DNA of 64,000 bases from Gelidibacter salicanalis (GTDB taxonomy: Bacteria > Bacteroidota > Bacteroidia > Flavobacteriales > Flavobacteriaceae): the NCBI RefSeq assembly GCF_007997285.1, contig NZ_VORX01000001.1, positions 124,001 to 188,000 on the forward strand. The letters run 5' to 3'. Position numbers and translations under genes: made by a program. Every line of letters starts with the position of its first letter. Within the stretch, counting starts at the first letter, position 1. Below the pieces are notes generated by a model. The model was not told the DNA's origin. It saw nothing but the letters and a program-made list of their open reading frames with translations, and searched no databases. This document shows positions 8,410-49,501 of the stretch, in pieces.

Positions 8410-9723
8410 ATGATTCTAAATGTTGCACGAAATAAGTTCTTTTGGTTACTTGATAGCTTAAAAAAAGGTAAAATAAAAAATAATTTAAATGAAATTGAAC
8501 TTTGTGTTGCGCATCCAAATTCTGATAAAGCCATTCAAATTAAAGATACGCATTTAAGACGTTTACTTGATCATGCGGTCAAAACGACCCAGTATTACAA
8601 TTGCCTGTCTTCCGCGACTACAATTTCTGGTTTTCCTGTGATTAGAAAAACCACTATTCAAAATAACTTTGAACTGTTTGAATCGAGTGAGTTTAAAGAC
8701 AAATCCAATTTTAAAGTCTCAACAAGTGGTTCTACAGGAGTGCCTTTTTTCTTATTTCAAAATCAAGATAAACGTCATAGAAACCGTGCAGATGTGATTT
8801 ATTTTTTCAGGAAAGCCAATTTTAATGTTGGAAATCGGTTATACGAGCTTGAAGTTTGGCGTGGACATAACAAGAAGGGAAGATTGAAGTCTTTTCTTCA
8901 GAATGTTTTACAATTTGACATTTCCAGATTAACTGATGAAAGCATTGAAACTTTTTTAGGATTATTAAAATCTGACCAACAATCTACAAAAACATTACTA
9001 GGCTTCGCGTCTGCCTATGAAATGATTGCACAATATTTGGAGAATAATAGTCTTGTTTTAAATGGTTTAGGTATTACTTCTGCGATTGCCAATGCAGAAT
9101 ATCTAAATCCTTACACAAAATATACACTAGGAAAACATCTTAATACCGTCGTGCTTTCTAGGTATTCAAGTGAGGAAATTGGAATTATTGCACAACAAAC
9201 ACTAGATTCTCCTGATCGGTTTGTTGTTAATCATGCAAGTTACCATGTTGAATTATTAAATTTGGAACGTGACGCTCCTGCTAAACTTGGGGAGCTTGGC
9301 AGAATTGTGGTCACCGATTTGTTTAACTATGCCATGCCTATAATTAGATATGATACCGGTGATATTGCACAATTTGGATTGAATAAAGAAGGTGCTATGG
9401 AGTTCGTGCATGTTGAAGGTCGTCAGATGGATCTTATTTATGATTCAAAGGGTAAGCTGATTTCTTCGTTTGTGATTTATACAAAATTTTACAACTATTA
9501 TCATTTATTAAAACAATATCAATTTATTCAACAAGGTGAAAAAGAATACGAAGTTAAATTGAACCTTCAAGGCGATAATTTTCCATTTGAAAAGCAATTG
9601 ATCATGGATATTGAATCAGACTTTGGAGAGGATGCTCAAGTTGCTGTTACTTATGTAGATGAAATTCCTGCTTTAAATTCTGGAAAGCGAAGAAAGGTGA
9701 TTAACAATTATAAAAAGAATTAG
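8410..9723 (+). CDS. PaaK/CapK-like adenylate-forming ligase
   Basis: 437 aa, the usual length for the phenylacetate-CoA ligase/CapK group of ANL enzymes. The P-loop-like STSGSTGVPFFLF (about residues 106-118) and YDTGDIAQFG (adenylate-binding YxTGD motif near residue 317) are clear, followed by EGRQMDLIYDSKGKLIS. ANL enzymes activate a carboxylate as acyl-AMP and transfer it to CoA or another acceptor. Relatives are common in surface-polysaccharide loci. The gene converges, with a 4-bp overlap at the stop codons, on the ATP-grasp/GNAT/BKACE operon. The substrate cannot be read from the sequence. Confidence 0.75.
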   Translation: MILNVARNKFFWLLDSLKKGKIKNNLNEIELCVAHPNSDKAIQIKDTHLRRLLDHAVKTTQYYNCLSSATTISGFPVIRKTTIQNNFELFESSEFKDKSNFKVSTSGSTGVPFFLFQNQDKRHRNRADVIYFFRKANFNVGNRLYELEVWRGHNKKGRLKSFLQNVLQFDISRLTDESIETFLGLLKSDQQSTKTLLGFASAYEMIAQYLENNSLVLNGLGITSAIANAEYLNPYTKYTLGKHLNTVVLSRYSSEEIGIIAQQTLDSPDRFVVNHASYHVELLNLERDAPAKLGELGRIVVTDLFNYAMPIIRYDTGDIAQFGLNKEGAMEFVHVEGRQMDLIYDSKGKLISSFVIYTKFYNYYHLLKQYQFIQQGEKEYEVKLNLQGDNFPFEKQLIMDIESDFGEDAQVAVTYVDEIPALNSGKRRKVINNYKKN

Positions 9724-10826
9724 TAAGTTTTTAAGCCTAGTTCCAAGATTTCATTGGTAAATTTTCCGAATAAAGGACCATTAGTAATTTGATGTATATC
9801 AATATTTTGATTATAGGTGTTAAATTCAATAAAAATGGGCGCATCAGTCTTATCAATTCCAATGTCCCAGGACACAAATTTGAAATAAGGAACAATTGGA
9901 TGCATGGCATAGATCATTTTTATGACACTCGAATAGTTGGGGATTTGAAAACCTTCAAAAAGGACATTTGTATGGGTTTTCTTCAGAAGCGTTCCCTTTT
10001 TGGTATATCCTATGTTTTTTAAATAGCCTTTTTTATCTATTCCAATGATGATTCCACCACCAGAATAATTATCGGTTTGGCTACCTGGCTGTCCTATTCT
10101 CAGTACCGATGATAAAACATAAACACCATTAGGTCTCAGATAGGTCATTATTCTTATTGTATTAAGAGATGACGGATTTAAAGCCTTTAATGCACTGTTT
10201 TGTTCAACAAATTCCTGAATAATAAAATCTTTTTTATACAATTTAAATACCTGGGAGATGGTAAGATTCTTATAAGAAGTTACCCCTGCTTTTATAGTAA
10301 AGGTATTGACCTGTTTTCCACGACCCGAATCTATTGTTGGTTTAATTACTAAAGGTTTATTAATTATGTTGCAGGCTTCAATAGCAATTTGCTCAGGAAC
10401 AATTTGATTATTTCTATAATAAAACCCATTAATATTCTGTATAACACGACTGGGTTGGTTAACATCTTTAAATAAAATATAGGATAGATTCTTATCTAAT
10501 AAAAATGGCCATTGTCGCATTTCGTTAAACCTCGGAGATAGTATGGATCTAAAAAGATCCTCAGGAATATAGTCCACATGAAATTCATTATTCAAGCCTG
10601 TATAATAGCTGTGCCAATAAGTATTGTTTAAATTATAGCCTTGAGATTTAAAATAAGACTTAGCCGCTTCAACTTGACTGGACTTTAGTTGTGGAGTCTT
10701 GTTTGTATGATTAAACCGTTGGATTTTGCTTCTGGAATTCATTTTTGAATTATATTCAAAAAACCGCTTTCTAGAATTTAAAACATGAGTAGTCAATAAT
10801 CGTTTCAATACAAAATAAACGCTCAT
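9720..10826 (-). CDS. ATP-grasp protein, sugar-transfer-associated type
   Basis: 368 aa. The middle and C-terminal parts have an ATP-grasp layout: IINKPLVIKPTIDSGRGKQV (lysine and glycine-rich loop, about residues 150-170), IIQEFVEQN (the acidic hinge), NTIRIMTYL, GGGIIIGID and the metal-binding end FVSWDIGID...PIFIEFNTYNQ. This matches the group called sugar-transfer-associated ATP-grasp, found in capsule and exopolysaccharide clusters. ATP-grasp enzymes join a carboxylate to an amine or thiol through an acyl-phosphate. The start overlaps the GNAT stop by 4 bp (ATGA), indicating translational coupling. Confidence 0.75.
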   Translation of the reverse strand: MSVYFVLKRLLTTHVLNSRKRFFEYNSKMNSRSKIQRFNHTNKTPQLKSSQVEAAKSYFKSQGYNLNNTYWHSYYTGLNNEFHVDYIPEDLFRSILSPRFNEMRQWPFLLDKNLSYILFKDVNQPSRVIQNINGFYYRNNQIVPEQIAIEACNIINKPLVIKPTIDSGRGKQVNTFTIKAGVTSYKNLTISQVFKLYKKDFIIQEFVEQNSALKALNPSSLNTIRIMTYLRPNGVYVLSSVLRIGQPGSQTDNYSGGGIIIGIDKKGYLKNIGYTKKGTLLKKTHTNVLFEGFQIPNYSSVIKMIYAMHPIVPYFKFVSWDIGIDKTDAPIFIEFNTYNQNIDIHQITNGPLFGKFTNEILELGLKTY

Positions 10827-36730: not shown

Positions 36731-36778
36731 GTACAACAATTGTATGTACAAATGTAAAGTATTTTGTAAAACTGACAA
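36730..36778 (-). promoter_or_regulatory. marR promoter with quasi-palindromic operator
   Basis: On the minus strand TTG (36778-36776), 19 bp, TACATTTG (36756-36749) form a consensus promoter. Directly behind it a 21-bp quasi-palindrome, TGTACA-N9-TGTACA with central AATT (36730-36750), overlaps the -7 box and ends at the ATG. This is the position expected for MarR autorepression (inference). Confidence 0.65.
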
Positions 36779-39052: not shown

Positions 39053-39095
39053 TGATTTATATCATATGATGAGGCTGCTGATTTTATTACATTTA
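39053..39095 (+). promoter_or_regulatory. FNR-like site and -7 box of the first universal stress gene
   Basis: TGATTTATATCA (39053-39064) is a perfect TGAT-N4-ATCA palindrome. A -7-like box TACATTTA follows at 39088-39095. The palindrome centre is 36.5 bp from the last base of the box, so it lies near -41 relative to the expected start of transcription, the class II activator position. The same spacing recurs at two other promoters of the cluster. Confidence 0.75.
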
Positions 39096-39114
39096 TAAAA
39101 TTAAAACGCCTGTC

Positions 39115-39948
39115 ATGAAAAATATTCTGTTATTAACTGATTTTTCCGATCCTTCCAAAAACGCTATAGCCTATGCGTTACAGCTGTTTTCTAACACAGA
39201 ATGCACCTTTCATGTCCTTTGTGTCCAAGATTCATCCGCCTACATAACGGATGACGTTGTATCTCAAGCGACCACAAGTTTGTACGATTCGCTTGTTAAT
39301 AAAAACCGACTAAAACTAATTGATTATGTCGCCGAGTTGGAATCGGAATTTGATACTAAAAGCATCAGTTTTAAAGTTATTGTAGATTATGATTCCCTGA
39401 TTGATGCGGTCCAGCAGAATGTCACTTCTAATGATATCGAGCTGATTGTAATGGGTACTAGCGGTGCTACAGGCGCCAAGGAGGTGATATTTGGAAGTAA
39501 CACATTACAAATAGTGCGAAACATTCAGTGCAACACATTAATCGTTCCTAAGGATTATGAGTACCAACACCCCAAAGCACTTTTATTGGCTTTAAATCCG
39601 CCAGATTTACTGTCTGGAAGAACTGCCACCGATTTTTTTCAATTCTTGCAAGCTCATACACTGAAATTGCATGTATTGCGATTTACTGAGGATACTGAAC
39701 GACAGGATGTCCATGATCAAGATACGGATGTACTGAATACACAGATGCATAGTACGTCTTATCAATACCATCAAATTGCGCAGGTGCCTATGGTGTATGC
39801 TGTTGGGACTTATTTGCAAACCCACGCCATTGATATGATAGGACTGTTTGCTCATCGTGAAACATTTTTAGAACGTTTATTTTTGGGGTCCGCCACCACT
39901 GAGATGTGCAAACACGCTGAATTTCCCCTGCTTATTTTTCACACTTAA
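39115..39948 (+). CDS. Universal stress protein, two Usp domains
   Basis: 277 aa. It starts KNILLLTDFSDPSKNAIAYAL, typical of the UspA fold. The first domain carries the ATP-binding motif G-x2-G-x9-G-S (GTSGATGAKEVIFGS, about residues 119-133). The second half keeps the fold (VYAVGTYLQTHAIDMIGLF) but lacks the motif. It is transcribed towards the large Usp operon on the other strand, and its promoter has the same FNR-like site. A role under oxygen or energy limitation is inference. Confidence 0.9.
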   Translation: MKNILLLTDFSDPSKNAIAYALQLFSNTECTFHVLCVQDSSAYITDDVVSQATTSLYDSLVNKNRLKLIDYVAELESEFDTKSISFKVIVDYDSLIDAVQQNVTSNDIELIVMGTSGATGAKEVIFGSNTLQIVRNIQCNTLIVPKDYEYQHPKALLLALNPPDLLSGRTATDFFQFLQAHTLKLHVLRFTEDTERQDVHDQDTDVLNTQMHSTSYQYHQIAQVPMVYAVGTYLQTHAIDMIGLFAHRETFLERLFLGSATTEMCKHAEFPLLIFHT

Positions 39949-39986
39949 ACTAAGGTTTAAAGTGAAACTAGGCTTTTTGTACACTT

Positions 39987-40400
39987 TTAGCGAATGAGCC
40001 CTTTGGTGTATTCCATCATATCCGATTTTAATTCTGAGGTGTTATTTAAGAACGTCACCAACTCCAATTCGGTATCATGATATTGCTTGAGAAAATAATT
40101 ATCACAAGATAATTCGTCGCATTCTACTTTAAGTTGGACTTCCTTATACTGTTTTTCAACTGCAGTAGTTAGGCTCGCGGTCTGTTTCTCATGCGCATCT
40201 ATACGCTTTTTAAACAATTCAATGTCTTCAAAGAGATTAGGTGTTTTAGGGTCAAAAATATTGGAGCCTAACAGGTGTCTAAAAAAGTCCAATTCTTCCA
40301 TTAATAGCACCAGGCGGGAGTTGTAAAAGGCTAAATTGAATTGAAGTTCTTCAGTGTTTTTATCGGAATAAGCGTATTTGTGTATTTCAAATTTTTTCAT
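39987..40400 (-). CDS. Coiled-coil protein of unknown function
   Basis: 137 aa, charged and almost fully helical (ELQFNLAFYNSRLVLLMEELDFFRHLLGS is the first long helix; the middle DAHEKQTASLTTAVEKQYKEV has heptad character). No signal, membrane segment or known motif. It is the last gene of the stress operon, 11 bp after the metallo-hydrolase, so it probably works with that system. Confidence 0.7.
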   Translation of the reverse strand: MKKFEIHKYAYSDKNTEELQFNLAFYNSRLVLLMEELDFFRHLLGSNIFDPKTPNLFEDIELFKKRIDAHEKQTASLTTAVEKQYKEVQLKVECDELSCDNYFLKQYHDTELELVTFLNNTSELKSDMMEYTKGLIR

Positions 40401-40411
40401 GGCTATCGTTT

Positions 40412-41785
40412 TTAAACGGTAAATGTTTCTACATCATAAAGTTTCGGAATAGTCACATTCCAATTAAAGACATCCTTAATTTTTACTCGTAAAGCGTCAG
40501 ATGCGGAAGGTTCACCATGGATAAGATAAACTTTTTCGGGAATATTCACAATCTTACGCATCCAATTTAATAATTCCTCCTGATCAGCATGGGCAGATAG
40601 ACTTTGCAAATGCTTAACGCTCGCTTTTACCGGATAATACTTGCCACCAAATTTAATTTCGTGGGCGCCGTCAAATAACTGTCGGCCACGCGTGCCTTCC
40701 GCCTGATATCCCACCAATAATACAGTCGTCGACTTCTTATCAATGAGCTGTTGTAAATAAGTTAGGACTCTCCCGCCAGTAACCATGCCGCTTCCGGCAA
40801 TAATGATTTTAGAGCGTTTATCATCAATTGTTCCCAAGGTTTCTTTATAAGATTCAATGATGTTGGCGTGGTTATACATGGCATTGTATTCAGAATCCGT
40901 TAGCTTGTGCCAATTTGGAAACTTTGCAAAAACATCCAATACGTTATTTCCCATGGGGCTATCTACAAAAACAGGAATGTTGGGGATTTTGTTCTTTTGA
41001 TATAATTTATAAAGGATAAACATGAGCACCTGAAGGCGTTCTACGGCAAAACTTGGGATGATGAGGTTACCTTTTTTAAGCAAGGTTTCCAAAATAATAT
41101 CAGTTAGCAATTGCTCAACATCTTCTTCAGGATGAAGTTTATTGCCGTAGGTGCTTTCTATAAATAAATAATCAGCCCATTCAGGGCGTTTAGGGTTTTC
41201 CAATAGATAATCGTCACTTCTACCAATGTCACCAGAAAAGACAAAGCGCTTAGCGTTTATGTCCAACTCTATAAACGTCGCCCCTAAAATATGTCCGTTA
41301 TACTGAAACCGATAGGAGATATGTTCTGATAAATTGATCCACAGATCTTCCTTTTCGGATTGAAAAAGCAAAATTGTTCGTTCCGCCTCTTCCAAAGTAT
41401 AAAATGGGAGCGCAGGAGTATGCTTTGTAAATTTCTCATCATTAGCTCTACCGGCATCTTCCTCATGAATCTTTGCGCTGTCTCTTAAGATAATCTCTGC
41501 GATAGCCAAGGTTGGTGCTGTTCCGATTATTTTCCCTTTAAAGCCTTCTTTTAATAAGCGTGGCAGATAGCCCACATGGTCTAAATGACCGTGGGTAATT
41601 AGGACAACATCAATACTTGATACGTCAATAGGTAGGGGCGTCCAATTGAGTTTGCGCAATTCCTTTAGTCCTTGAAACATTCCACAATCGATCAAAATAT
41701 TTTTTTCAGAGGTTTCAATAAAAAATTTTGAACCAGTGACAACGCTCGAGGCGCCCAAAAAAGTAACTTTTACATGTGGATCCAT
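40412..41785 (-). CDS. MBL-fold beta-CASP hydrolase (RNase J/CPSF-like)
   Basis: 457 aa, the length of bacterial beta-CASP proteins with an RNA-metabolising (RMMBL) end. Metal site THGHLDHVGYLPRL (HxHxDH), SGDIGRSDD, then the beta-CASP insert, GSGMVTGGRV, GYQAEGTRGRQLFDG, SLSAHADQEELLNW and YLIHGEPSASD. Relatives cut RNA. It is located 4 bp after the ATP-cone/endonuclease gene and in the stress operon, suggesting RNA turnover during the stress state (inference). Confidence 0.9.
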   Translation of the reverse strand: MDPHVKVTFLGASSVVTGSKFFIETSEKNILIDCGMFQGLKELRKLNWTPLPIDVSSIDVVLITHGHLDHVGYLPRLLKEGFKGKIIGTAPTLAIAEIILRDSAKIHEEDAGRANDEKFTKHTPALPFYTLEEAERTILLFQSEKEDLWINLSEHISYRFQYNGHILGATFIELDINAKRFVFSGDIGRSDDYLLENPKRPEWADYLFIESTYGNKLHPEEDVEQLLTDIILETLLKKGNLIIPSFAVERLQVLMFILYKLYQKNKIPNIPVFVDSPMGNNVLDVFAKFPNWHKLTDSEYNAMYNHANIIESYKETLGTIDDKRSKIIIAGSGMVTGGRVLTYLQQLIDKKSTTVLLVGYQAEGTRGRQLFDGAHEIKFGGKYYPVKASVKHLQSLSAHADQEELLNWMRKIVNIPEKVYLIHGEPSASDALRVKIKDVFNWNVTIPKLYDVETFTV

Positions 41786-41789
41786 AGGT

Positions 41790-42635
41790 TTATAGTTTAC
41801 AGAGGAGTTTGATTTCCTTCTTTATATTCGATTGACGAGTTTCAGAAATACCCAGATGATCCAGGAAGAATACATCGTCTATCAGATCTCTACAGAGGAC
41901 GACATCTCTACTCAGTAAAAATTGTTTTTCCCGATTGCTCAGTAAAGTGGAGGCGGTTATAGGGTATAAACCCAACCGGTCTATGCGGTCTTTTAAACCA
42001 TCATGGTGAGGGTAATCCCAGCTTAGGAGATAAAGACCACTACAGTTACCATATTGCAAAGCATCTTTAGTAAATCGTGTATTGGTCACCACCCAACCCA
42101 TATCTAAAGTGGTGTCATGGGGTTTAGATTCCCAGTGCCTCTTGACATCCGCAAATCGGGAGGCGATATACAAGGGAACTTTAACATTACAATTCCTGCC
42201 TTCTTCACTATGAAATTTACACTCTATTAGTGTTGAAGTGCCATTTTTTGTAGCGACCACATCAATTTCATGGGGTACGCAAAACCCTTTAATAATTTCA
42301 CTGACACGGGTATCATAACCAGAATACTTTAGGATTTCACTTATAAAACGTTCAAAAGGATATCCCGTAGGTCCCAGCTCATAAATTGCTTTTTTAAGTT
42401 TGTATTTTGAAGCAAGGTAACTCGCTCTCTTTTTCAATAGGGCGTAGGCCCGGTTATAAATCTCTTTGGTTGAGATGCCATTGTATAATTCGTCTTGTAC
42501 TTTTTCAATAATGTCGTTAATGGTAGCGTCATCTGCTCCTGATTTTTTTAAAGAATTCTGGAGTTTACGCATTGAGAATTTAACCTTTTCGCCCGAGGAT
42601 TTCGTAATTTCATAATTGGTATTCATAGCTTGCAT
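41790..42635 (-). CDS. ATP-cone protein with Mrr-like endonuclease domain
   Basis: 281 aa (a second ATG at 42626 is possible). Residues about 6-90 form an ATP-cone (ITKSSGEKVKFSMRKLQNSL, EIYNRAYALLKKR), the nucleotide-sensing module of ribonucleotide reductase and NrdR. Residues about 100-200 form a PD-(D/E)xK nuclease of the Mrr type, with FERFISEILKYSGYDTRV, IDVVATKNG and LIECKFH (Asp and Glu-x-Lys). The pairing suggests a nuclease controlled by ATP or dATP level. It lies in the Usp operon directly before the beta-CASP gene. Confidence 0.82.
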   Translation of the reverse strand: MQAMNTNYEITKSSGEKVKFSMRKLQNSLKKSGADDATINDIIEKVQDELYNGISTKEIYNRAYALLKKRASYLASKYKLKKAIYELGPTGYPFERFISEILKYSGYDTRVSEIIKGFCVPHEIDVVATKNGTSTLIECKFHSEEGRNCNVKVPLYIASRFADVKRHWESKPHDTTLDMGWVVTNTRFTKDALQYGNCSGLYLLSWDYPHHDGLKDRIDRLGLYPITASTLLSNREKQFLLSRDVVLCRDLIDDVFFLDHLGISETRQSNIKKEIKLLCKL

Positions 42636-42717
42636 TGCATTACTATTGATTACTAAATTGATAATCGGGGAAGGCTAAACCCTCTTAGTCTATTCATCCT
42701 CTAGCGGCATTTAAACA

Positions 42718-43572
42718 CTAATGTCTCGCGTCATGCATCACCAAAATAGGGACGCGAGAATCGTAGGCAATCCCTTTAACCAATGGTTGGTTGATGATGC
42801 TGGCAAAGAACGAATGTTTCTTATTGATGAAGGCCACCATGTCACTTTCCCTACTTTCTACAAAACAATTAATGGCTGCAGGAACCGAGATATTTCTTAA
42901 AAAATGAAACGAATAGTTGACGTCATATAAATAGTCTTTCAATTGTTTTTTCTTGGCCAATTGCTGTGTATTCAGTGCGTCTTCCTCTAAAATATGCAAG
43001 ACTTTTATGGAGGCATCACACCGTTTTGCAATGTCAATTATGTATTTTAAGTTAGTGCCTTTAAAGTGTGATTTGTAGCTTGTAGGAAAAACAATTTCTT
43101 TGGGAAGATCTAGTTTTGCTAACTGGGGCACTACCAGAACAGGGCAGGTTCTAACCTTTTCCATAACACTTAAGGCAGTACTGCCGTAAATTTTGCTGCG
43201 GGAATTTGTTTCGCCTCGCGTCCCCATAACAATTAGCTCAATGTCTTTTTCTTCTACCACCTTAGTAATGGCGTCTAAAGGATGGCTGCAGATGGAAATG
43301 GTCTGGAAACTGTGTTTTGGGTTTCCTTTTTCTCCAAATACATACGTGCTCATGACCTTGTCCAATCCGCTTTTGGATTCCGCTTTTGAAGTTTTGTAAA
43401 ATGCATTGCCGGGCTCCATATTCATGAGGCTTTCAATGTTGTTGGAGTCGATAAAAAACACATTTAGAAGGTAGAAAATGCAAAGCTCATCTTTATAAAG
43501 TTCAATAGCATAGTCAATAGCTTGTTTGGCATTGAGCGAAAAGTCTGTGGGTAACAATATTCTACGTTTCAT
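42718..43572 (-). CDS. Universal stress protein, two Usp domains
   Basis: 284 aa. The N-terminal RILLPTDFSLNAKQAIDYAI and GTRGETNSRSKIYGS (ATP motif G-x2-G-x9-G-S) define a nucleotide-binding Usp domain; the C-terminal domain is degenerate (FVESRESDMVAFINKKHSFF). It is the fifth of the minus-strand paralogues and lies 47 bp after the preceding one, with no separate promoter seen. Confidence 0.88.
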   Translation of the reverse strand: MKRRILLPTDFSLNAKQAIDYAIELYKDELCIFYLLNVFFIDSNNIESLMNMEPGNAFYKTSKAESKSGLDKVMSTYVFGEKGNPKHSFQTISICSHPLDAITKVVEEKDIELIVMGTRGETNSRSKIYGSTALSVMEKVRTCPVLVVPQLAKLDLPKEIVFPTSYKSHFKGTNLKYIIDIAKRCDASIKVLHILEEDALNTQQLAKKKQLKDYLYDVNYSFHFLRNISVPAAINCFVESRESDMVAFINKKHSFFASIINQPLVKGIAYDSRVPILVMHDARH

Positions 43573-43619
43573 GAGTTTTTTTTTGAGGGTTAATCTATTG
43601 GTGATGGTGGCTAAATAGT

Positions 43620-44459
43620 TTAGTTATCAACATGAATAATTAAGAATGGAATGATGGGTTGGTACCCGATATTTTTAATTATAGGCTCTTTGGTCATATT
43701 CTCTATAATGCTGTGTTTGTAATTGAACATGGCTAAAACGTCAACATGGAGTTCTTTTATAAAATCGTTGATAATTTCAGCTTTGGTAGAGTAGGCGGGC
43801 ATCCAATGGAAACTGTGTTTTTGATCTTTAAAAACATCTTTTAAAATGTCGACGTTTTTTTGTTGTTTGTCACTTAGGGATTTTTCAACATTAATGTGTA
43901 AAATGTTGATATGGGCATCATGAAGTGCGGCAAAATCCTCCAAAACCTTCAGCATGGCAAGATCGTACGGACGGTTAAAATCTGTCGGAAATGCAATATG
44001 TTTAGGCGCCTTAAATGAGTTGTTATCAGGCACGACCATTACAGGACAGCTTTTTATACTTTGTATGGTTTTTACGGTATTGCTTCCAAAGAAAAACTTG
44101 TCTACGCCGGTAGCCCCTTTGGTGCCCATAATAACCATGTCAATATGATATTTTTCAATGCTATTCTTGATGGCATATAACAATTCGTCACCACTAATAA
44201 TTATGTTAAAAGTGTGTCCCGGATTGCTGTAATCCTTATCTGCTCTGGTTTTTAAAGCAGCTAAATCACGCTGAGATGCTTCTTTAAGGGACGCGATAAA
44301 ATGACTGGTAATAAACGTTCTTGACTGTGCATTCGAAAAATAATAAGAGTTCAGAAAATAAAAGGTGCATTCTTCCTTAGCGTATAATTTTGTAGCATAG
44401 TCTAAAGCGGTCCATGCGTTTTCTGAAAAATCAGTAGGTATTAAAATAGACTTTTTCAT
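43620..44459 (-). CDS. Universal stress protein, two Usp domains
   Basis: 279 aa. SILIPTDFSENAWTALDYA, then ATP motif GTKGATGVDKFFFGS in the first domain; the second domain ends in ELHVDVLAMFNYKHS without the motif. The stop of the upstream paralogue lies 6 bp before its start, so the two are in one operon. Confidence 0.88.
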   Translation of the reverse strand: MKKSILIPTDFSENAWTALDYATKLYAKEECTFYFLNSYYFSNAQSRTFITSHFIASLKEASQRDLAALKTRADKDYSNPGHTFNIIISGDELLYAIKNSIEKYHIDMVIMGTKGATGVDKFFFGSNTVKTIQSIKSCPVMVVPDNNSFKAPKHIAFPTDFNRPYDLAMLKVLEDFAALHDAHINILHINVEKSLSDKQQKNVDILKDVFKDQKHSFHWMPAYSTKAEIINDFIKELHVDVLAMFNYKHSIIENMTKEPIIKNIGYQPIIPFLIIHVDN

Positions 44460-44465
44460 AGTGTT

Positions 44466-45320
44466 TTAGTTTGGATTGTTAATTTCAGACGGGACTACCA
44501 AAAAAGGTATGGTTAAATGAAACCCTATTTGGTTGACGGTCGATTTAAAAAATATATTCTCAAAAAATGATTTTTTATTGTTGATCATGACCAACAGGTC
44601 AATGGCAAAGTGTTCCTGAACATTAAGAATGGCCTGCATCACATCGTTGCCTTGAACTTCATGAATTTGATACGTTGCCGGTAACAATAAGTGCTCTAAG
44701 CGTGCTTTATTATTGAATTGTGCCTCAGTGCATACGGTAGTTAGTACGTGTAGCACGTGTATAGTGGCCTCCTGCTTTTGGGCAAGAGTCAGTAGTGCTG
44801 TAAATGGATTTATTTGGTACGAAATTCCATAATCAGTAGGGAATAAAATGGCGCTCGGTTTTTTATATGCAAATCCTTCAGGGATTGCCAGTACCGGACA
44901 TTTCACATTTTTAAAGACGTGCACAGTATTCGATCCAAAAAGTACTTCTTTTGCGCCCGTGGCTCCTTTTGTGCCCATCACAATCATATGAATGGTATGC
45001 GTTTCCATAAATCCGGTTATTCCGGAGATGAGGTTGTCAAACCTAGCCATCTCCTGGATATCGTGTTTGGGATTATGTCCAAACTTTTCAAAAATACGCG
45101 CTCTCAAACCCTTTAATTGTTGTTGCGCACTGTTTCTGATGGTGTCCTCCAAACCAAATTGCGCAGGATAGCCCAGCACATATTCTACATGATAAATTAC
45201 CGGCGTATAGGTGTTCAGGAGATAAAATGTACACACCTCGTCATGAAACAATTCCATGGCATAAACAATGGCATTCCATGAATTTTCCGAGAAATCAGTG
45301 GGTAGGAGTATGTTTTTCAT
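44466..45320 (-). CDS. Universal stress protein, two Usp domains
   Basis: 284 aa. NILLPTDFSENSWNAIVYAM and ATP motif GTKGATGAKEVLFGS; C-terminal domain degenerate (HFAIDLLVMINNKKSFFEN). Spaced 18 bp from the preceding paralogue at 45339-46190. The ATP-motif region is close to that of the plus-strand gene at 39115 (both KEV-FGSNT), suggesting these two are the nearest relatives. Confidence 0.88.
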   Translation of the reverse strand: MKNILLPTDFSENSWNAIVYAMELFHDEVCTFYLLNTYTPVIYHVEYVLGYPAQFGLEDTIRNSAQQQLKGLRARIFEKFGHNPKHDIQEMARFDNLISGITGFMETHTIHMIVMGTKGATGAKEVLFGSNTVHVFKNVKCPVLAIPEGFAYKKPSAILFPTDYGISYQINPFTALLTLAQKQEATIHVLHVLTTVCTEAQFNNKARLEHLLLPATYQIHEVQGNDVMQAILNVQEHFAIDLLVMINNKKSFFENIFFKSTVNQIGFHLTIPFLVVPSEINNPN

Positions 45321-45338
45321 TGGTTGTATTTTAAAGTG

Positions 45339-46190
45339 TTAGGCGTCTCTCTTTATGTTTTGCATGGCAAAAAATGGCACGTTGAGTTTTAAGCTCAATT
45401 GATCCACACGAGAAGGGTATAAGAACGATTCTAAAAATGATTCTCTGGTATTCACCATCACCAGCATATCGATAGGATGGTTTGCCACATACGCTTCAAT
45501 AGCCGTTACCACATCTTTGCTGTCTATCGTTTTAAAATTAACCTCATTTTTACAGAGCGCTTCCTTCATAAAACGTTGGTTGTCTTCTTGTCTAATGGAT
45601 AGTTTTGAGCTTTTAGAAATATAAACCACATCAACCACTGAACGGTATGGAGCTATCATGTCGCAAAATAATTTAAGCTCTCTCCTTTTGTAAGGGATGA
45701 GGTAGTTGGTAGGGAAGAGCACGTGTTTGGGTTGTGAGTAGGTCTGATTCTCGGGTATTGCCAATACAGGACATTTCACATATTTTAAAACTTGCAAGGT
45801 CTGGCTTCCAAAAGTGATTTTTTTGTCGTTGCTTTTTCCTTTTGTTCCCATCACAATAAGGTCGATGTTTTTCTCATCTACAATTTTATCAGATTCATCA
45901 ATAAGAATATTATTGGAAGACACCGTGATATACGTGTGCTGCGGATTTGGAGAAATGTCATTGATCTCTTTTAAAATAAGCTCCAGTTGTTCCGCTGATC
46001 TCTGTGCAACCTGGGTAGTCACGTCGTGCAAATTGTCTCGCGTGACATCTATAGTCTCCTGATAGATCGCGTCTTGGTAAGCATGCATGAGGTAGAAATT
46101 GCACTTTTCATATTTAAAAAGTTCGAGTGCATAGCTCACAGCATTCATGGCATTTTCTGAAAAATCTGTCGGTATTAGTATATTTCTCAT
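45339..46190 (-). CDS. Universal stress protein heading the minus-strand operon
   Basis: 283 aa. NILIPTDFSENAMNAVSYAL and ATP motif GTKGKSNDKKITFGS; second domain with NHPIDMLVMVNTRESF. It follows its own FNR-like site and -7 box (46213-46255) and opens a run of eight close genes to 39987: four Usp, ATP-cone/endonuclease, beta-CASP hydrolase and coiled-coil protein make up this operon with spacers of 4-82 bp. Confidence 0.88.
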   Translation of the reverse strand: MRNILIPTDFSENAMNAVSYALELFKYEKCNFYLMHAYQDAIYQETIDVTRDNLHDVTTQVAQRSAEQLELILKEINDISPNPQHTYITVSSNNILIDESDKIVDEKNIDLIVMGTKGKSNDKKITFGSQTLQVLKYVKCPVLAIPENQTYSQPKHVLFPTNYLIPYKRRELKLFCDMIAPYRSVVDVVYISKSSKLSIRQEDNQRFMKEALCKNEVNFKTIDSKDVVTAIEAYVANHPIDMLVMVNTRESFLESFLYPSRVDQLSLKLNVPFFAMQNIKRDA

Positions 46191-46212
46191 GGTTTCCTAA
46201 GTGTTTATTTTA

Positions 46213-46255
46213 TAAATTTAGAAAGTAAACGAGACAAAACCTATGATAAATATCA
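46213..46255 (-). promoter_or_regulatory. FNR-like site and -7 box of the Usp operon
   Basis: TGATAAATATCA (46244-46255) is a TGAT-N4-ATCA palindrome; on the minus strand a -7-like box TAAATTTA follows at 46220-46213. The centre-to-box-end distance is 36.5 bp, identical to the other two sites. Confidence 0.75.
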
Positions 46256-46288
46256 GATCCTTAGGGTGAAAGGAGAAGATGGAGATTT

Positions 46289-47125
46289 TTAATGCAATAC
46301 AAGAAATGGAACATCAGTGTGGTAACTTATTTTTTCAATTTTGGAATGGAATAAGATGTGTTGAAAATAGTTTAGGTTTTTGGCCACCATGGTAATCATG
46401 TCAATATTTCGGCTTTCTACAAAGCATTGTACGGCATCTGCAACTTTGGTGTTGGTCAGAAAATGAAAGCTATGGTCCAAGTTACTGAAATAATCTTCTA
46501 GAAGTTCTTTGTTTTTAATTTGATCGCTGTTGAGAGACGTATCTTTTTTGCTGATGTTCAAAATCCGGATGGCCGCATCGTGTTTTTCGATAATGTTCAC
46601 TGCTGGCTCAAGGATGTTGATGTTATAAAGCATCGAAAAATCAGTAGGAAAGGCCACTTCCTTTAATTCAGTGTATTTGGCGTTTTCAGGAACCACTAAG
46701 GAGTTGCAATGTACTTTGGTAATCACATCCCCCGTATTGCTTCCAATAATCAATTTTTTGAGTCCCGAAGCCCCTTTAGTGCCCATGATAATCATATGTA
46801 TTTTTTTCTCGCTGACCTGCTGTCTGATGGCGTCCACCAAGAAATTATGATCCGTTACCGTGTAGAATTTGTGTTTTTTGTTGGTGGTTAGCGTTGAAAT
46901 TTGATGTACTAAATCCCGTAACCTTGCTTTTGCAGTTTGGGTATACACATCCGTCACTGGTACGCTAGAGACCAGGTAAGGTGAATCGCAGAGAGCTATA
47001 TCACTCGGTTTTATGACGTGCAGTAAATAAAAATTGCATGCCGATTCTTCAAACAGATGCAAAGCATACGTCATCGCATTCAATGCGTTATCTGAAAAAT
47101 CTGTGGGCAATAATATATTTTTCAT
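46289..47125 (-). CDS. Universal stress protein, two Usp domains
   Basis: 278 aa. NILLPTDFSDNALNAMTYAL and ATP motif GTKGASGLKKLIIGS; C-terminal domain with FVESRNIDMITMVAKNLNYF lacks the motif. It has its own promoter and FNR-like site and lies between the regulator gene and the Usp operon; the gap to the next gene (98 bp) holds the next site. Confidence 0.88.
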   Translation of the reverse strand: MKNILLPTDFSDNALNAMTYALHLFEESACNFYLLHVIKPSDIALCDSPYLVSSVPVTDVYTQTAKARLRDLVHQISTLTTNKKHKFYTVTDHNFLVDAIRQQVSEKKIHMIIMGTKGASGLKKLIIGSNTGDVITKVHCNSLVVPENAKYTELKEVAFPTDFSMLYNINILEPAVNIIEKHDAAIRILNISKKDTSLNSDQIKNKELLEDYFSNLDHSFHFLTNTKVADAVQCFVESRNIDMITMVAKNLNYFQHILFHSKIEKISYHTDVPFLVLH

Positions 47126-47143
47126 TTGTTAAATCTTCATGAA

Positions 47144-47186
47144 CAAATGTAAATGCCATTAAGGCCTTAAAAAATGATAAAAATCA
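47144..47186 (-). promoter_or_regulatory. FNR-like site and -7 box of the solitary Usp gene
   Basis: TGATAAAAATCA (47175-47186) followed on the minus strand by a full-consensus -7 box TACATTTG at 47151-47144. Spacing from palindrome centre to box end is again 36.5 bp. The ATG lies 18 bp behind the box. Confidence 0.8.
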
Positions 47187-47206
47187 TATCTAATTTTGGG
47201 AGCGTA

Positions 47207-48256
47207 TTAACTTATACTTTTAAGTTTCTCAATATCAATGATTCTGATATTCCGACCTTCAATTTCCAAGATGCCTTCCTTTCTGAAAGATGACATGGTT
47301 CTAATCAGTGTTTCCGTAGCAATACCGGCCACACTTGCCAAATCATTACGTGAAATGCGGATGGCTTCATCTGGTCTTTTGTTGAGCTTTTCGGCGAATT
47401 TAAGAATGGTTGTAGCTGTTTTTTTATGGACGGAACTATAGGCCATTTGCAGGAGTTGATCCTTAGTGCCTTTTAAATCTTCGGTCAACAAGTTGATCAA
47501 TTCCATAGTCACCTGATGATTGGTGTTCAGAATTCCCTTTAATACATTATTGGAAACGCCTACCAATTCTGTAGGCTGTATGGCTGTGGCAGTTTCTTGA
47601 TAAGGGGTGTTTTCAGTAAATGAGGTGTAGCCAAATAAATCATCTTCTTTGTGCAAAGCCGTGGTTAATTCCTTGCCTTGTTCATCTAATTTATGACATT
47701 TTACCAAGCCTTTTAAAATGAGGTAAATGGTGTTGGCATGATCTCCTTCTACATAAATATGTTGCCCTTCCGCAAATTTTACAATCGCTCCGTTGTCATC
47801 GAAAAAGTTTTTGAGGTCGTTCAGCGTTCGCAGTTCTCCATGGTTTTCAGAAACTGGTTCAACTTTTTCCTGAATTTCCTTGAGAATAGAAATTTTAGCC
47901 AACCTACTTTCTATAGCGCTGATCAATTCTTCTTCACTAAACGGTTTCGTGATGTAATCATCAGCCCCCAAGTTCATGCCTCGTCTCACATCTTGTCGTT
48001 CGGTTTTTGCGGAGAGGTAAATAAAAGGGATGTATTTTGTGCTTTCGTCGTTAGAAAGGGCTTCCAAAACCGCATAACCGTCCATTTCTGGCATCATGAT
48101 ATCGCAGACGATCAAATCAGGAAGATGTTTTTTTGCCAATTGCATCCCTATTTTTCCATTGGGTGCGGTCATGACCTGATAATCTGAAAGTTCTAATAAC
48201 TCTGCAGTATTCTCTCTTAAAACGGTGTCATCCTCAATCAATAATAATCTTCTCAT
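47207..48256 (-). CDS. Response regulator fused to a CRP/FNR-type DNA-binding protein
   Basis: 349 aa. Receiver domain 1-120 with acidic pocket E8-D9-D10, phosphoacceptor D52 (IVCDIMMPEMDG), S82 and K104. Residues about 150-265 are a cyclic-nucleotide-type sensor barrel (VEGDHANTIYLILKGLVKCHKLDEQG). Residues about 270-349 are a CRP/FNR winged helix with SRNDLASVAGIATETLIRTMSSFRKEG; the helix pattern TETxxR corresponds to the FNR E-x-x-S-R pattern with Ile in place of Ser. The few Cys residues rule out an FNR-type iron-sulfur cluster. It follows the histidine kinase by 3 bp and is the best candidate to bind the TGAT-N4-ATCA sites. Confidence 0.88.
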   Translation of the reverse strand: MRRLLLIEDDTVLRENTAELLELSDYQVMTAPNGKIGMQLAKKHLPDLIVCDIMMPEMDGYAVLEALSNDESTKYIPFIYLSAKTERQDVRRGMNLGADDYITKPFSEEELISAIESRLAKISILKEIQEKVEPVSENHGELRTLNDLKNFFDDNGAIVKFAEGQHIYVEGDHANTIYLILKGLVKCHKLDEQGKELTTALHKEDDLFGYTSFTENTPYQETATAIQPTELVGVSNNVLKGILNTNHQVTMELINLLTEDLKGTKDQLLQMAYSSVHKKTATTILKFAEKLNKRPDEAIRISRNDLASVAGIATETLIRTMSSFRKEGILEIEGRNIRIIDIEKLKSIS

Positions 48257-48259
48257 GTG

Positions 48260-49501
48260 TTATGCTTTGTTTGGTAATGTAATTTTAAAAACACTCCCTT
48301 CGTGTTCTTCACTTGTAAATGAAATAGTTCCTCCTAAATTCTCAAGATGTCCTTTTACAATATTCAATCCGATGCCCGTACCCTGAATATTCAATACATT
48401 TTCCGCTCTAAAATACCGATTAAAAATATTTTTCTGTTCCACTTCCGGAATTCCAATGCCGTTATCCTTGATTCTGAACACGGTATTATGTTCGTTTTGC
48501 GAAATTTTTATATCAATATTGGTGTGTTCTGGTGAGTATTTAATCGCATTATGGACAATATTGGACAAGGATAATTCTAAAATCTTTTCGTCCTGATGTA
48601 AAGACATATCATCAATATTATCCGGATAATTAATATTCTGTCCGTCCTTTAAAAGCATGTTTGCATTATATATGACTTCATTAAGCACTTTGCTCAATTT
48701 AAAAGTCTTAAACGTATAGTTCACTTTACCGGTTTCCAAGCGTTCTACGGATAAAAAATCATTTAGAATGTTGTTGAGGTAGTGCACTTTACTGGTAATG
48801 GTCTTCAGATGCTTGTCTCGCTTTTCCTGATCTTCTGTTAATTTATATTTCCCTAATAAAACGGTAGAGGTCAGGATGCCACTTAAAGGCGTCTTGAATT
48901 CGTGAGACACCAACGAAAGAAATTTCGTTTTAAGTTCATTCAGTTCTATTTCCCGTTTCAGAGCGATTTTAGTTTTTTCTTCCGCTTTAATCCGACGCTT
49001 ATTCTCATTGTCTAATTCTACATTGGCAAATTTGAGTTCTTCTACAATATTATGTAATGATTGGGTCCGATCTTCAACTTTTTTCTCCAGTTGATTGTTA
49101 AGTTCTATAATTTGATGTTCCTGTCTTTTTCTATCGCTGATATCGATAATGAGCGCCATGACAAACGTTTTGCCGTTTATTTCAAACGGATTTAAACCTG
49201 CTTCAACCGGAAAAATGGAACCATCCTTTCTTTTGCCGTAAATATCGCGGCCTTTGCCCATTTGTCGTCGTTCATGCTTGGCCATAAACCGATTAAAATG
49301 TCCACCGTGGTTTGCATGGTAGTTTTTAGGAATTAAGGTGTTTAAAGGCTGTCCTACAAGACCTTCCCGGGTGTATCCAAAAATTTGTTCGGCAGAGGTA
49401 TTGACTTCCATAATGGTTTGAGTTTCATCAACGATGATGACACCTTCTGAAACGGCTCCTAAGAGAATTTTAAATACTTTTCTTTGATCTTCTTTAAACA
49501 T
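48260..49501 (-). CDS. PAS-domain sensor histidine kinase, FixL-like
   Basis: 413 aa, without membrane segments, so a cytoplasmic sensor. PAS domain about 10-130, then a coiled coil (about 135-190), the H box FLSLVSHEFKTPLSGIL, N box LSNIVHNAIKYSP, G1 DNGIGIP and G2 GTGIGLNIVKGHL. The PAS segment aligns without gaps to FixL from ILMPEP/LIPKNY to GRIVTG/GRDIYG: H65 falls on the FixL haem ligand His and R85 on the distal Arg. Many PAS domains of this general type share such a His without binding haem, so oxygen sensing is a hypothesis. Confidence 0.88.
   Translation of the reverse strand: MFKEDQRKVFKILLGAVSEGVIIVDETQTIMEVNTSAEQIFGYTREGLVGQPLNTLIPKNYHANHGGHFNRFMAKHERRQMGKGRDIYGKRKDGSIFPVEAGLNPFEINGKTFVMALIIDISDRKRQEHQIIELNNQLEKKVEDRTQSLHNIVEELKFANVELDNENKRRIKAEEKTKIALKREIELNELKTKFLSLVSHEFKTPLSGILTSTVLLGKYKLTEDQEKRDKHLKTITSKVHYLNNILNDFLSVERLETGKVNYTFKTFKLSKVLNEVIYNANMLLKDGQNINYPDNIDDMSLHQDEKILELSLSNIVHNAIKYSPEHTNIDIKISQNEHNTVFRIKDNGIGIPEVEQKNIFNRYFRAENVLNIQGTGIGLNIVKGHLENLGGTISFTSEEHEGSVFKITLPNKA

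Follow-up and report, generated by a model that had tools for sequence, protein, structure and literature searches.

The stretch analysed here, 64,000 nucleotides of the Gelidibacter salicanalis genome (contig NZ_VORX01000001.1, positions 124,001 to 188,000) and referred to below as the window, carries a cluster of universal stress protein (USP) genes next to the genes for a PAS histidine kinase and a receiver-CRP fusion protein (RR-CRP). We favour, with reasonable confidence, an account in which RR-CRP, a FixJ/FixK-like fusion, is driven by the FixL-like kinase and activates a DosR-like hypoxia regulon, and in which this regulon shares its operator with an FNR paralog. The arrangement is real and conserved across many flavobacteria, a regulon of hypoxia or dormancy type that probably switches on a dormancy-like low-oxygen response.

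Three USP genes (PF00582) in the window are preceded by the palindrome TGAT-N4-ATCA and a -7 box of the form TAnnTTTR. On the forward strand, the operator at 39053..39064 (CTGAT-TTAT-ATCAT with one flanking base per side) and the box TACATTTA at 39088..39095 precede the USP gene at 39115-39948. On the reverse strand, the operator at 46244..46255 (CTGAT-ATTT-ATCAT, flanking bases included) and the box TAAATTTA at 46213..46220 precede the gene at 45339-46190, while the operator at 47175..47186 (ATGAT-TTTT-ATCAT, again with its flanking bases) and the box TACATTTG at 47144..47151 precede that at 46289-47125. The distance from the palindrome centre to the last base of the box is 36.5 bp at all three sites. 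A sequence-only reading of this stretch had described these palindromes and their identical box distance; the observation is confirmed, with coordinates, strands and USP genes all matching, and is far from chance. Position -41.5 is that of a class II activator. In F. psychrophilum the -7 box occupies -12 to -5, according to the sections of PMC9723704 drawn on here, and the palindrome centre would therefore be at -41.5 (~ -41.5 for the promoter at 39053). With starts carried over from that other species, the box spacing, shared by 3/3 window sites and by 170 sites in relatives, would fit the class II position.

The palindrome by itself is unremarkable in the window, where four copies are found versus 2.0 expected and 12 of 100 shuffles reach four. 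The fourth copy, at 9790-9801, lies inside the open reading frame (ORF) 9720-10826 and has no box at gaps of 21-40, where the gap is the number of bases from palindrome to box and 23 is the spacing of the window sites. Relaxing the pattern adds two correctly spaced sites in the window, at 36773 (before 36844) and 49782 (before 50027), both weak, doubtful and probably chance matches. The whole genome holds 190 copies of TGAT-N4-ATCA and 15 places with a box at gaps of 21-40 (2 in the reversed-pattern control); seven of the 15 fall at exactly gap 23, an excess over the mean of the other 19 gaps with a Poisson P of ~3e-7. Across 80 neighbourhoods of RR-CRP genes in relatives, 1.56 Mb in total, 170 of 252 palindrome-box hits at gaps of 5-45 lie at gap 23. 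The 40 remaining gaps together contribute 82, the second-highest gap has only 8, and each of two control words is met just once at gap 23. Strict gap-23 sites are present in 68 of the 80 loci. The relaxed pattern TGA-N6-TCA, which contributes TGAC and GTCA variants, gives 355 hits at gap 23, at most 14 at any other gap and at least one site in 80/80 loci. The motif and its spacing, as proposed from the window, are thus above chance both in the genome and in its relatives. Over the 170 strict sites, the base before TGAT is C in 104, A in 49, T in 9 and G in 8, the N4 is mostly A or T, and ATCA is followed by T in 164 sites and by A in 1. Compared with the FNR/FixK box TTGAT-N4-ATCAA, the operator differs in both outer bases, a correction to the FNR-like label that the sequence-only reading gave to the promoters.

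The candidate regulator is encoded beside these promoters. RR-CRP (47207..48256, reverse strand, 349 aa) consists of a receiver (PF00072, 4.4e-29), a cNMP-binding-like domain (PF00027) and an HTH_Crp_2 domain (PF13545), the latter two above cut-off and placing the protein in the CRP/FNR family. Its closest named relatives are from Gelidibacter (88 and 85% identity). In 81 of 81 RR-CRPs, the window's own included, the receiver keeps Asp52 and the recognition helix reads E..IR (E315, I318, R319). When RR-CRP is compared with solved chains, each best stretch among the best 60 of 332 matches covers either the receiver or the CRP part. The recognition helix of FNR proper and FixK is E..SR. RR-CRP does not have this helix, and its just two cysteines, 51 and 187, do not supply the four-cysteine Fe-S ligand set of FNR proper; because box, helix and cysteines all differ, RR-CRP is placed outside FNR/FixK proper.

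The arrangement is conserved. In 78 of the 80 loci a kinase gene lies within 200 bp upstream of RR-CRP, and in 75 the start of a USP gene is found no more than 300 bp downstream. The receiver-CRP and PAS kinase noticed beside the stress genes, and identified by their Pfam matches, are thus conserved neighbours; relatives of the ATP-cone and metallo-beta-lactamase (MBL) genes described below occur in 32 and 29 loci, respectively. Among ORFs with at least 70 bp upstream, the strict site precedes 51 of 156 USP ORFs versus 63 of 454 other ORFs in the same loci (p 7e-7). USP genes stand downstream of 75 of the 170 sites, spread over 52 loci; in 4 of these cases the distance is 79 bp or more. A further 31 sites precede a gene of ~135 aa, mostly divergent from the kinase; this gene (L024:8332-8742 and 30 further loci) has no Pfam family above cut-off and is TerB-like by impression only. 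The remaining sites include those before genes for HPF (7), Hsp20 (3), DnaJ-like (2), M50-CBS (2) and PNPOx-like (2) proteins and one each before ccoN-, hemN- and nirK-like genes, with no ORF called at 10.

A distant RR-CRP subfamily (~40% identity) shows a related arrangement: the kinase adjoins RR-CRP in each of the 12 loci examined, three loci again have Hsp20-like, ATP-cone and MBL genes, and the helix is E..SR in 7 of the 12. Kinases with a FixL-like RHDGY/KHDSY...IIG pattern occur in 7 loci of this subfamily; those with a FixL-like pocket pattern adjoin distant E..SR RR-CRPs in L234, L235, L237, L242, L241, L243 and L244. The prediction that E..SR RR-CRPs use TTGAT-N4-ATCAA failed, with zero gap-23 matches in 7 such loci; in three of these, a gene that by reading is Hsp20-like is preceded by relaxed GTGAT or CTGAT sites, and four family f5 loci among the distant E..SR RR-CRPs have no gap-23 site with the patterns tried. 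One genome (G138) has two RR-CRPs, at C1:533590 (65% identity to that of the window) and at 2668267 (40%); the latter has an E..IR helix. Autoregulation of the kinase gene was rejected: the window has a sole relaxed upstream match, 292 bp away from the gene start, and elsewhere only 2 of the 67 kinase ORFs whose upstream stretch reaches 70 bp or more are preceded by the strict site.

The kinase (48260..49501, reverse strand; PF02518, PF00512 and PAS) belongs to a set of 79, window included, in which the phospho-acceptor His is kept in 79/79. Its PAS domain matches FixL best among PDB chains (1d06, 2.2e-17), followed by further FixL chains and then DosP. The FixL pocket His and Arg, which we take to be the proximal His and the distal Arg, align with it gap-free. 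Among the 79 kinases, 74 have the pocket His, 59 the Arg and 58 both; the Arg is absent in 4 of the 5 kinases without the His versus 16 of the 74 with it (p 0.013). An AlphaFold2 model of the PAS domain, built with 27 relatives out of 72 usable kinase stretches, has a mean pLDDT of 79; FixL and DosP heme chains, from few different proteins, fill the first 24 places among its fold matches, with LOV domains next. By the NCBIfam FixL model the window kinase scores far below cut-off, 99 of 850 bits. The PAS domain is likely to bind heme.

The regulon extends well beyond this locus. A genome scan for MTGAY-N4-RTCAT with the box at the window spacing finds 12 places (reversed pattern 0). On the respiratory side these precede hemN, nirK, the cytochrome c gene of a nosZ-like unit and the ccoS-ccoN region; the others belong to a formate-tetrahydrofolate-ligase-like gene, four USP genes, a CBS gene, a 52-aa protein and a dehydrogenase. 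Gene names were read from translated starts unless a family match is cited; the hemN, nirK and ccoN of this genome exceed the NCBIfam cut-off. Six other RR-CRP genomes give 142 sites (reversed control 3), including those of [NiFe] hydrogenase, molybdopterin oxidoreductase and norC-like cytochrome c genes. The 154 sites listed (12 plus 142) make up a table of 157 rows, 4 stretch-end sites being doubled and one identical copy merged, and 78 of the 157 rows, 4 repeats among them, were left unclassified. The idea of a stress regulon at this locus is upheld in its USP link and is too narrow otherwise, the sites extending past both the window and the stress genes. The same site also stands before genes that by reading are ferredoxin-oxidoreductase-, pyruvate-phosphate-dikinase-, phosphotransacetylase- and TonB-like (genomes G079, G095, G109, G138 and G163; L213, L215, L271, L294, L298 and L303), and anaerobic carbon metabolism may belong to the regulon. 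A butanediol-dehydrogenase-like gene after one site (L002:306-1367) consists of two adjoining ORFs, possibly a frame break.

A second candidate regulator comes from the same family, which has six HTH_Crp_2 matches in the genome, five above cut-off. The FNR paralog (L017:1048-1725; G000:C8:396590-397264) is divergent to a P-type ATPase-like gene and near cco genes, and its recognition helix is TATESAIR versus TATETLIR in RR-CRP. Of 17 aligned paralogs, 16 have C4, C7 (a CxxC near the start) and C53, and all 17 have C106 and the E..IR helix; it is the probable oxygen-sensing FNR of the group. A sample of 196 genomes of the order contains 21 with RR-CRP (E<=1e-40), 87 with the FNR paralog (E<=1e-30) and 77 with the site. 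The site cannot be a mark of RR-CRP only, as it occurs in genomes with the FNR paralog alone, and thus it outlives RR-CRP.

Genomes that have one regulator or the other are informative in this respect. Two of them, G102 and G167, encode RR-CRP and have no FNR paralog (E<=1e-30) and no other E..IR protein among their HTH_Crp_2 matches, yet they have 22 sites (9 and 13; reversed control 0), 11 of which lie within ~10 kb of RR-CRP. These sites precede 9 USP, 1 Hsp20, 2 PNPOx-like, 2 PLD-type and 1 PEPCK gene, 4 genes for small proteins of 138-150 aa and 2 for a 92-aa membrane-like protein, with nothing called after 1. A respiratory gene follows 0 of the 22, the cco, hemN, nir and nos genes themselves not having been searched for there. 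In ten FNR-only genomes, 45 sites were read (in one listing of 34 sites, the 30 with a locus), and they include 5 cco, 5 hemN, 4 nirK-like, 1 norC-like, 2 narK-like and 1 CBS gene. Respiratory sites therefore make up 17/45 in FNR-only versus 0/22 in RR-CRP-only genomes (p 6e-4) and USP sites 4/45 versus 9/22 (p 0.006), in a comparison of one genus with one other genus. Of all the evidence that the two proteins divide the labour, this contrast is the strongest.

The base before TGAT shows a parallel trend. It is A in 35, C in 5, T in 3 and G in 2 of the 45 FNR-only sites, versus C in 18, A in 3 and T in 1 of the 22 RR-CRP-only sites (p 2e-8), and the C count of the RR-CRP neighbourhoods (104/170) likewise differs from that of FNR-only genomes (5/45; p 8e-10). 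Within seven RR-CRP genomes, stress genes have C 17 and A 11 and respiratory genes A 20, C 6 and T 2 (p 0.006; 0.010 when genome G039 is excluded), the classes having been set from a listing without the base, although some bases had been seen earlier. The stress class comprises USP, the 135-aa gene, HPF and Dps; CBS genes, kept as their own group, have C in 1 of 7, and counting them as stress gives 18/35 (p 0.02). USP genes directly after RR-CRP have C 12, A 11 and T 1 (n=24). A strict one-base code, C for RR-CRP and A for FNR, was rejected in view of the mixed bases within RR-CRP genomes and the single-genus comparison sets. We take the base as a bias, an affinity tilt, and not as a code.

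These findings can be assembled into a mechanism. The kinase would sense low oxygen, or another heme ligand such as nitric oxide (NO), through its FixL-like PAS domain and phosphorylate RR-CRP, encoded in the same operon, on its receiver. So activated, RR-CRP would bind as a dimer to (C/A)TGAY-N4-RTCAT, with the centre at -41.5, and act as a class II activator that recruits RNA polymerase to sigma-A promoters of USP and other dormancy-type genes such as Hsp20, HPF, PNPOx-like and CBS; in effect, it would be a FixJ receiver and a FixK/FNR activator within one protein. The FNR paralog, with its conserved cysteines, may use an operator that is almost identical, favouring respiratory genes (cco, hemN, nir, nor, nos); two sensors would thus feed one promoter architecture. 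For RR-CRP, phosphotransfer, heme, signal, binding and activation are all steps that we infer, and the sites, their spacing and conservation, the gene content, adjacency and helix conservation come directly from computation. The further proposal, that the fused FixJ/FixK runs the dormancy regulon and the cysteine-bearing FNR runs respiration, with C or A tilting promoters between two differently sensitive sensors, is tentative and falls somewhat short of an even chance.

Several observations weigh against the account favoured here. Sites occur in genomes without RR-CRP and are therefore no proof that RR-CRP binds them, nor can RR-CRP be named the sole regulator. Among 30 genomes of the same family, those with RR-CRP do not have significantly more sites (105 in 16 versus 57 in 14, p 0.08). 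The co-occurrence with the receiver-CRP gene, named as a check in the sequence-only reading, holds near RR-CRP, where sites are enriched, and breaks down in FNR-only genomes, in which 4 of the 45 sites are at USP genes. The RR-CRP-only and FNR-only sets each represent a single genus. Genome G039 has RR-CRP and no FNR paralog (E<=1e-30), and its 7 sites include hemN, ccoN, cytochrome c and RIC-like genes; it also holds another CRP protein with an E..IR helix. On the side of the kinase, the equivalent of Arg220 is present in 59 of the 79 and that of Arg206 in 4, and the loop before the Arg in the PAS model has a pLDDT below 50.

Some of these points would suit other explanations. The most serious is that RR-CRP works the sites while its kinase responds to a cue that is not oxygen or NO bound to heme, such as redox, flavin or energy state; PAS ligands cannot be read from sequence, the Arg206 equivalent is mostly absent and that of Arg220 is present in 59 of 79. 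We consider this unlikely, if deserving of attention, given that the closest solved PAS relatives are heme PAS domains, that loss of the pocket His goes with loss of the Arg, that the FixL-like kinase pattern recurs in the distant subfamily and that the co-regulated genes are microaerobic. It is distinctly less likely that the FNR paralog alone works all sites, USP promoters included, and that RR-CRP has other targets. This would fit the E..IR helix shared by 17/17 paralogs and the same site and spacing in FNR-only genomes, with their 4 USP sites, but G102 and G167 keep 22 sites without the paralog, half of them near RR-CRP, and the density around RR-CRP (170 in 1.56 Mb) is far above that of whole genomes (105 in 16 genomes of 3-5 Mb). 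Another E..IR protein of the CRP family (L019 type, RVETVIR), found in this genome and in G039, is a very improbable operator-binding regulator: G102 and G167 retain sites, and their HTH_Crp_2 matches do not include it. Least credible of all is that no dedicated regulator is involved and the palindrome is a structural part of promoters or a product of chance: the near-chance count of the palindrome alone in the window would allow it, and the single-base spacing peak in the genome and the 80 loci, the gene content and the low reversed or control-word counts (2 in the genome gap scan, 1 and 1 in the 80 loci, 0 and 3 in the regulon scans) speak strongly against it. The regulatory link drawn in the sequence-only reading thus gains from the conserved site, spacing and kinase/RR-CRP/USP adjacency and from sites that persist without the FNR paralog, and loses its exclusiveness, RR-CRP not being the only candidate.

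The genes of the locus are arranged as follows. The kinase and RR-CRP genes, with 3 bp between them, are a two-gene signalling operon. The USP gene at 39115..39948 (forward strand, 277 aa; 1.8e-25 to PF00582) is its own transcription unit, and that at 46289..47125 (2.4e-27) adjoins RR-CRP. A long reverse-strand unit runs from 46190 to 39987 and begins with four USP genes, at 45339..46190 (6.8e-24), 44466..45320 (1.6e-26), 43620..44459 (4.5e-19) and 42718..43572 (4.6e-21). These are followed by genes for an ATP-cone and Mrr-type protein (41790..42635; PF03477, PF04471), an MBL-fold beta-CASP nuclease-like protein (40412..41785; PF10996, PF07521) and, last, a 137-aa protein without a Pfam match (39987..40400). 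Proteins of 137-152 aa resembling the latter repeatedly have their own site (L063:1539-1991, L208, L330, L331, L372, L377). The ATP-cone/Mrr and beta-CASP MBL genes (40412-42635) occur together as a conserved pair, and do so in the distant RR-CRP subfamily as well (L241, L243, L244). The MBL protein shows similarity to the models of aCPSF1 and of the type VII CRISPR nuclease, far below cut-off in both cases.

A literature search with combined terms found no published description of this regulon. The cited sections of PMC8510549 assign CRP/FNR homologs of metagenome-assembled genomes of Flavobacteriales and others to carbon sensing and report no evidence that they control denitrification; contrary to this, the sites at nir, nor, nos-linked, cco and hemN genes suggest that the FNR paralog may do so. 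The operator and regulon offer a ready-made system in which oxygen control can be tested in a large group of bacteria from sea and soil. The proposed chain from kinase to activator, with two proteins, would be a simpler design than FixL-FixJ-FixK, and the regulon would be a further USP-rich hypoxia regulon alongside DosR and lxa. If the C/A tilt is true, one promoter set is both shared by and divided between two oxygen sensors that differ in sensitivity.

Known systems resemble this one in part. The DosR regulon has heme sensor kinases and Hsp20 and CBS members; DosR is a NarL-type regulator with GAF-heme sensors, whereas the regulator here is a receiver-CRP protein with a DNA-binding part of another family. 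FNR-family control of USP under hypoxia is also a feature of E. coli, and Anr/FNR is a single-component regulator with no kinase. In the sections of PMC6127331 used here, such control is likewise described for Pseudomonas Anr/FNR, and the DosR/DosST regulon of Mycobacterium tuberculosis is USP-rich, with 10 USPs among 48 genes. The same sections describe the lxa locus of Burkholderia cenocepacia, with six USPs, a heat-shock protein, cytochrome genes and a CRP-family regulator whose homolog FixK is controlled by FixLJ; FixK is a separate protein there, and those sections mention no receiver fusion. NmpRSTU of Myxococcus xanthus is alike in its heme-dependent kinase and in a regulon with USP, CBS, cbb3 oxidase and hemN genes, and unlike in its protoglobin kinase, multi-component phosphorelay and NtrC-like regulator (PMC11841059, as excerpted). 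The FixL-FixJ-FixK/FnrN system of rhizobia shares a heme-PAS kinase, a receiver, a low-oxygen activator of the FNR family and a cbb3 oxidase target, and it too has a second sensor, FnrN, which has an N-terminal cysteine cluster and acts on the same box as its FixK. In rhizobia, by the cited portion of PMC7888657, FixJ or FxkR transcribes fixK and the box is TTGAT-N4-ATCAA; here, in contrast, a single protein combines receiver and activator, and the box reads (C/A)TGAY-N4-RTCAT.

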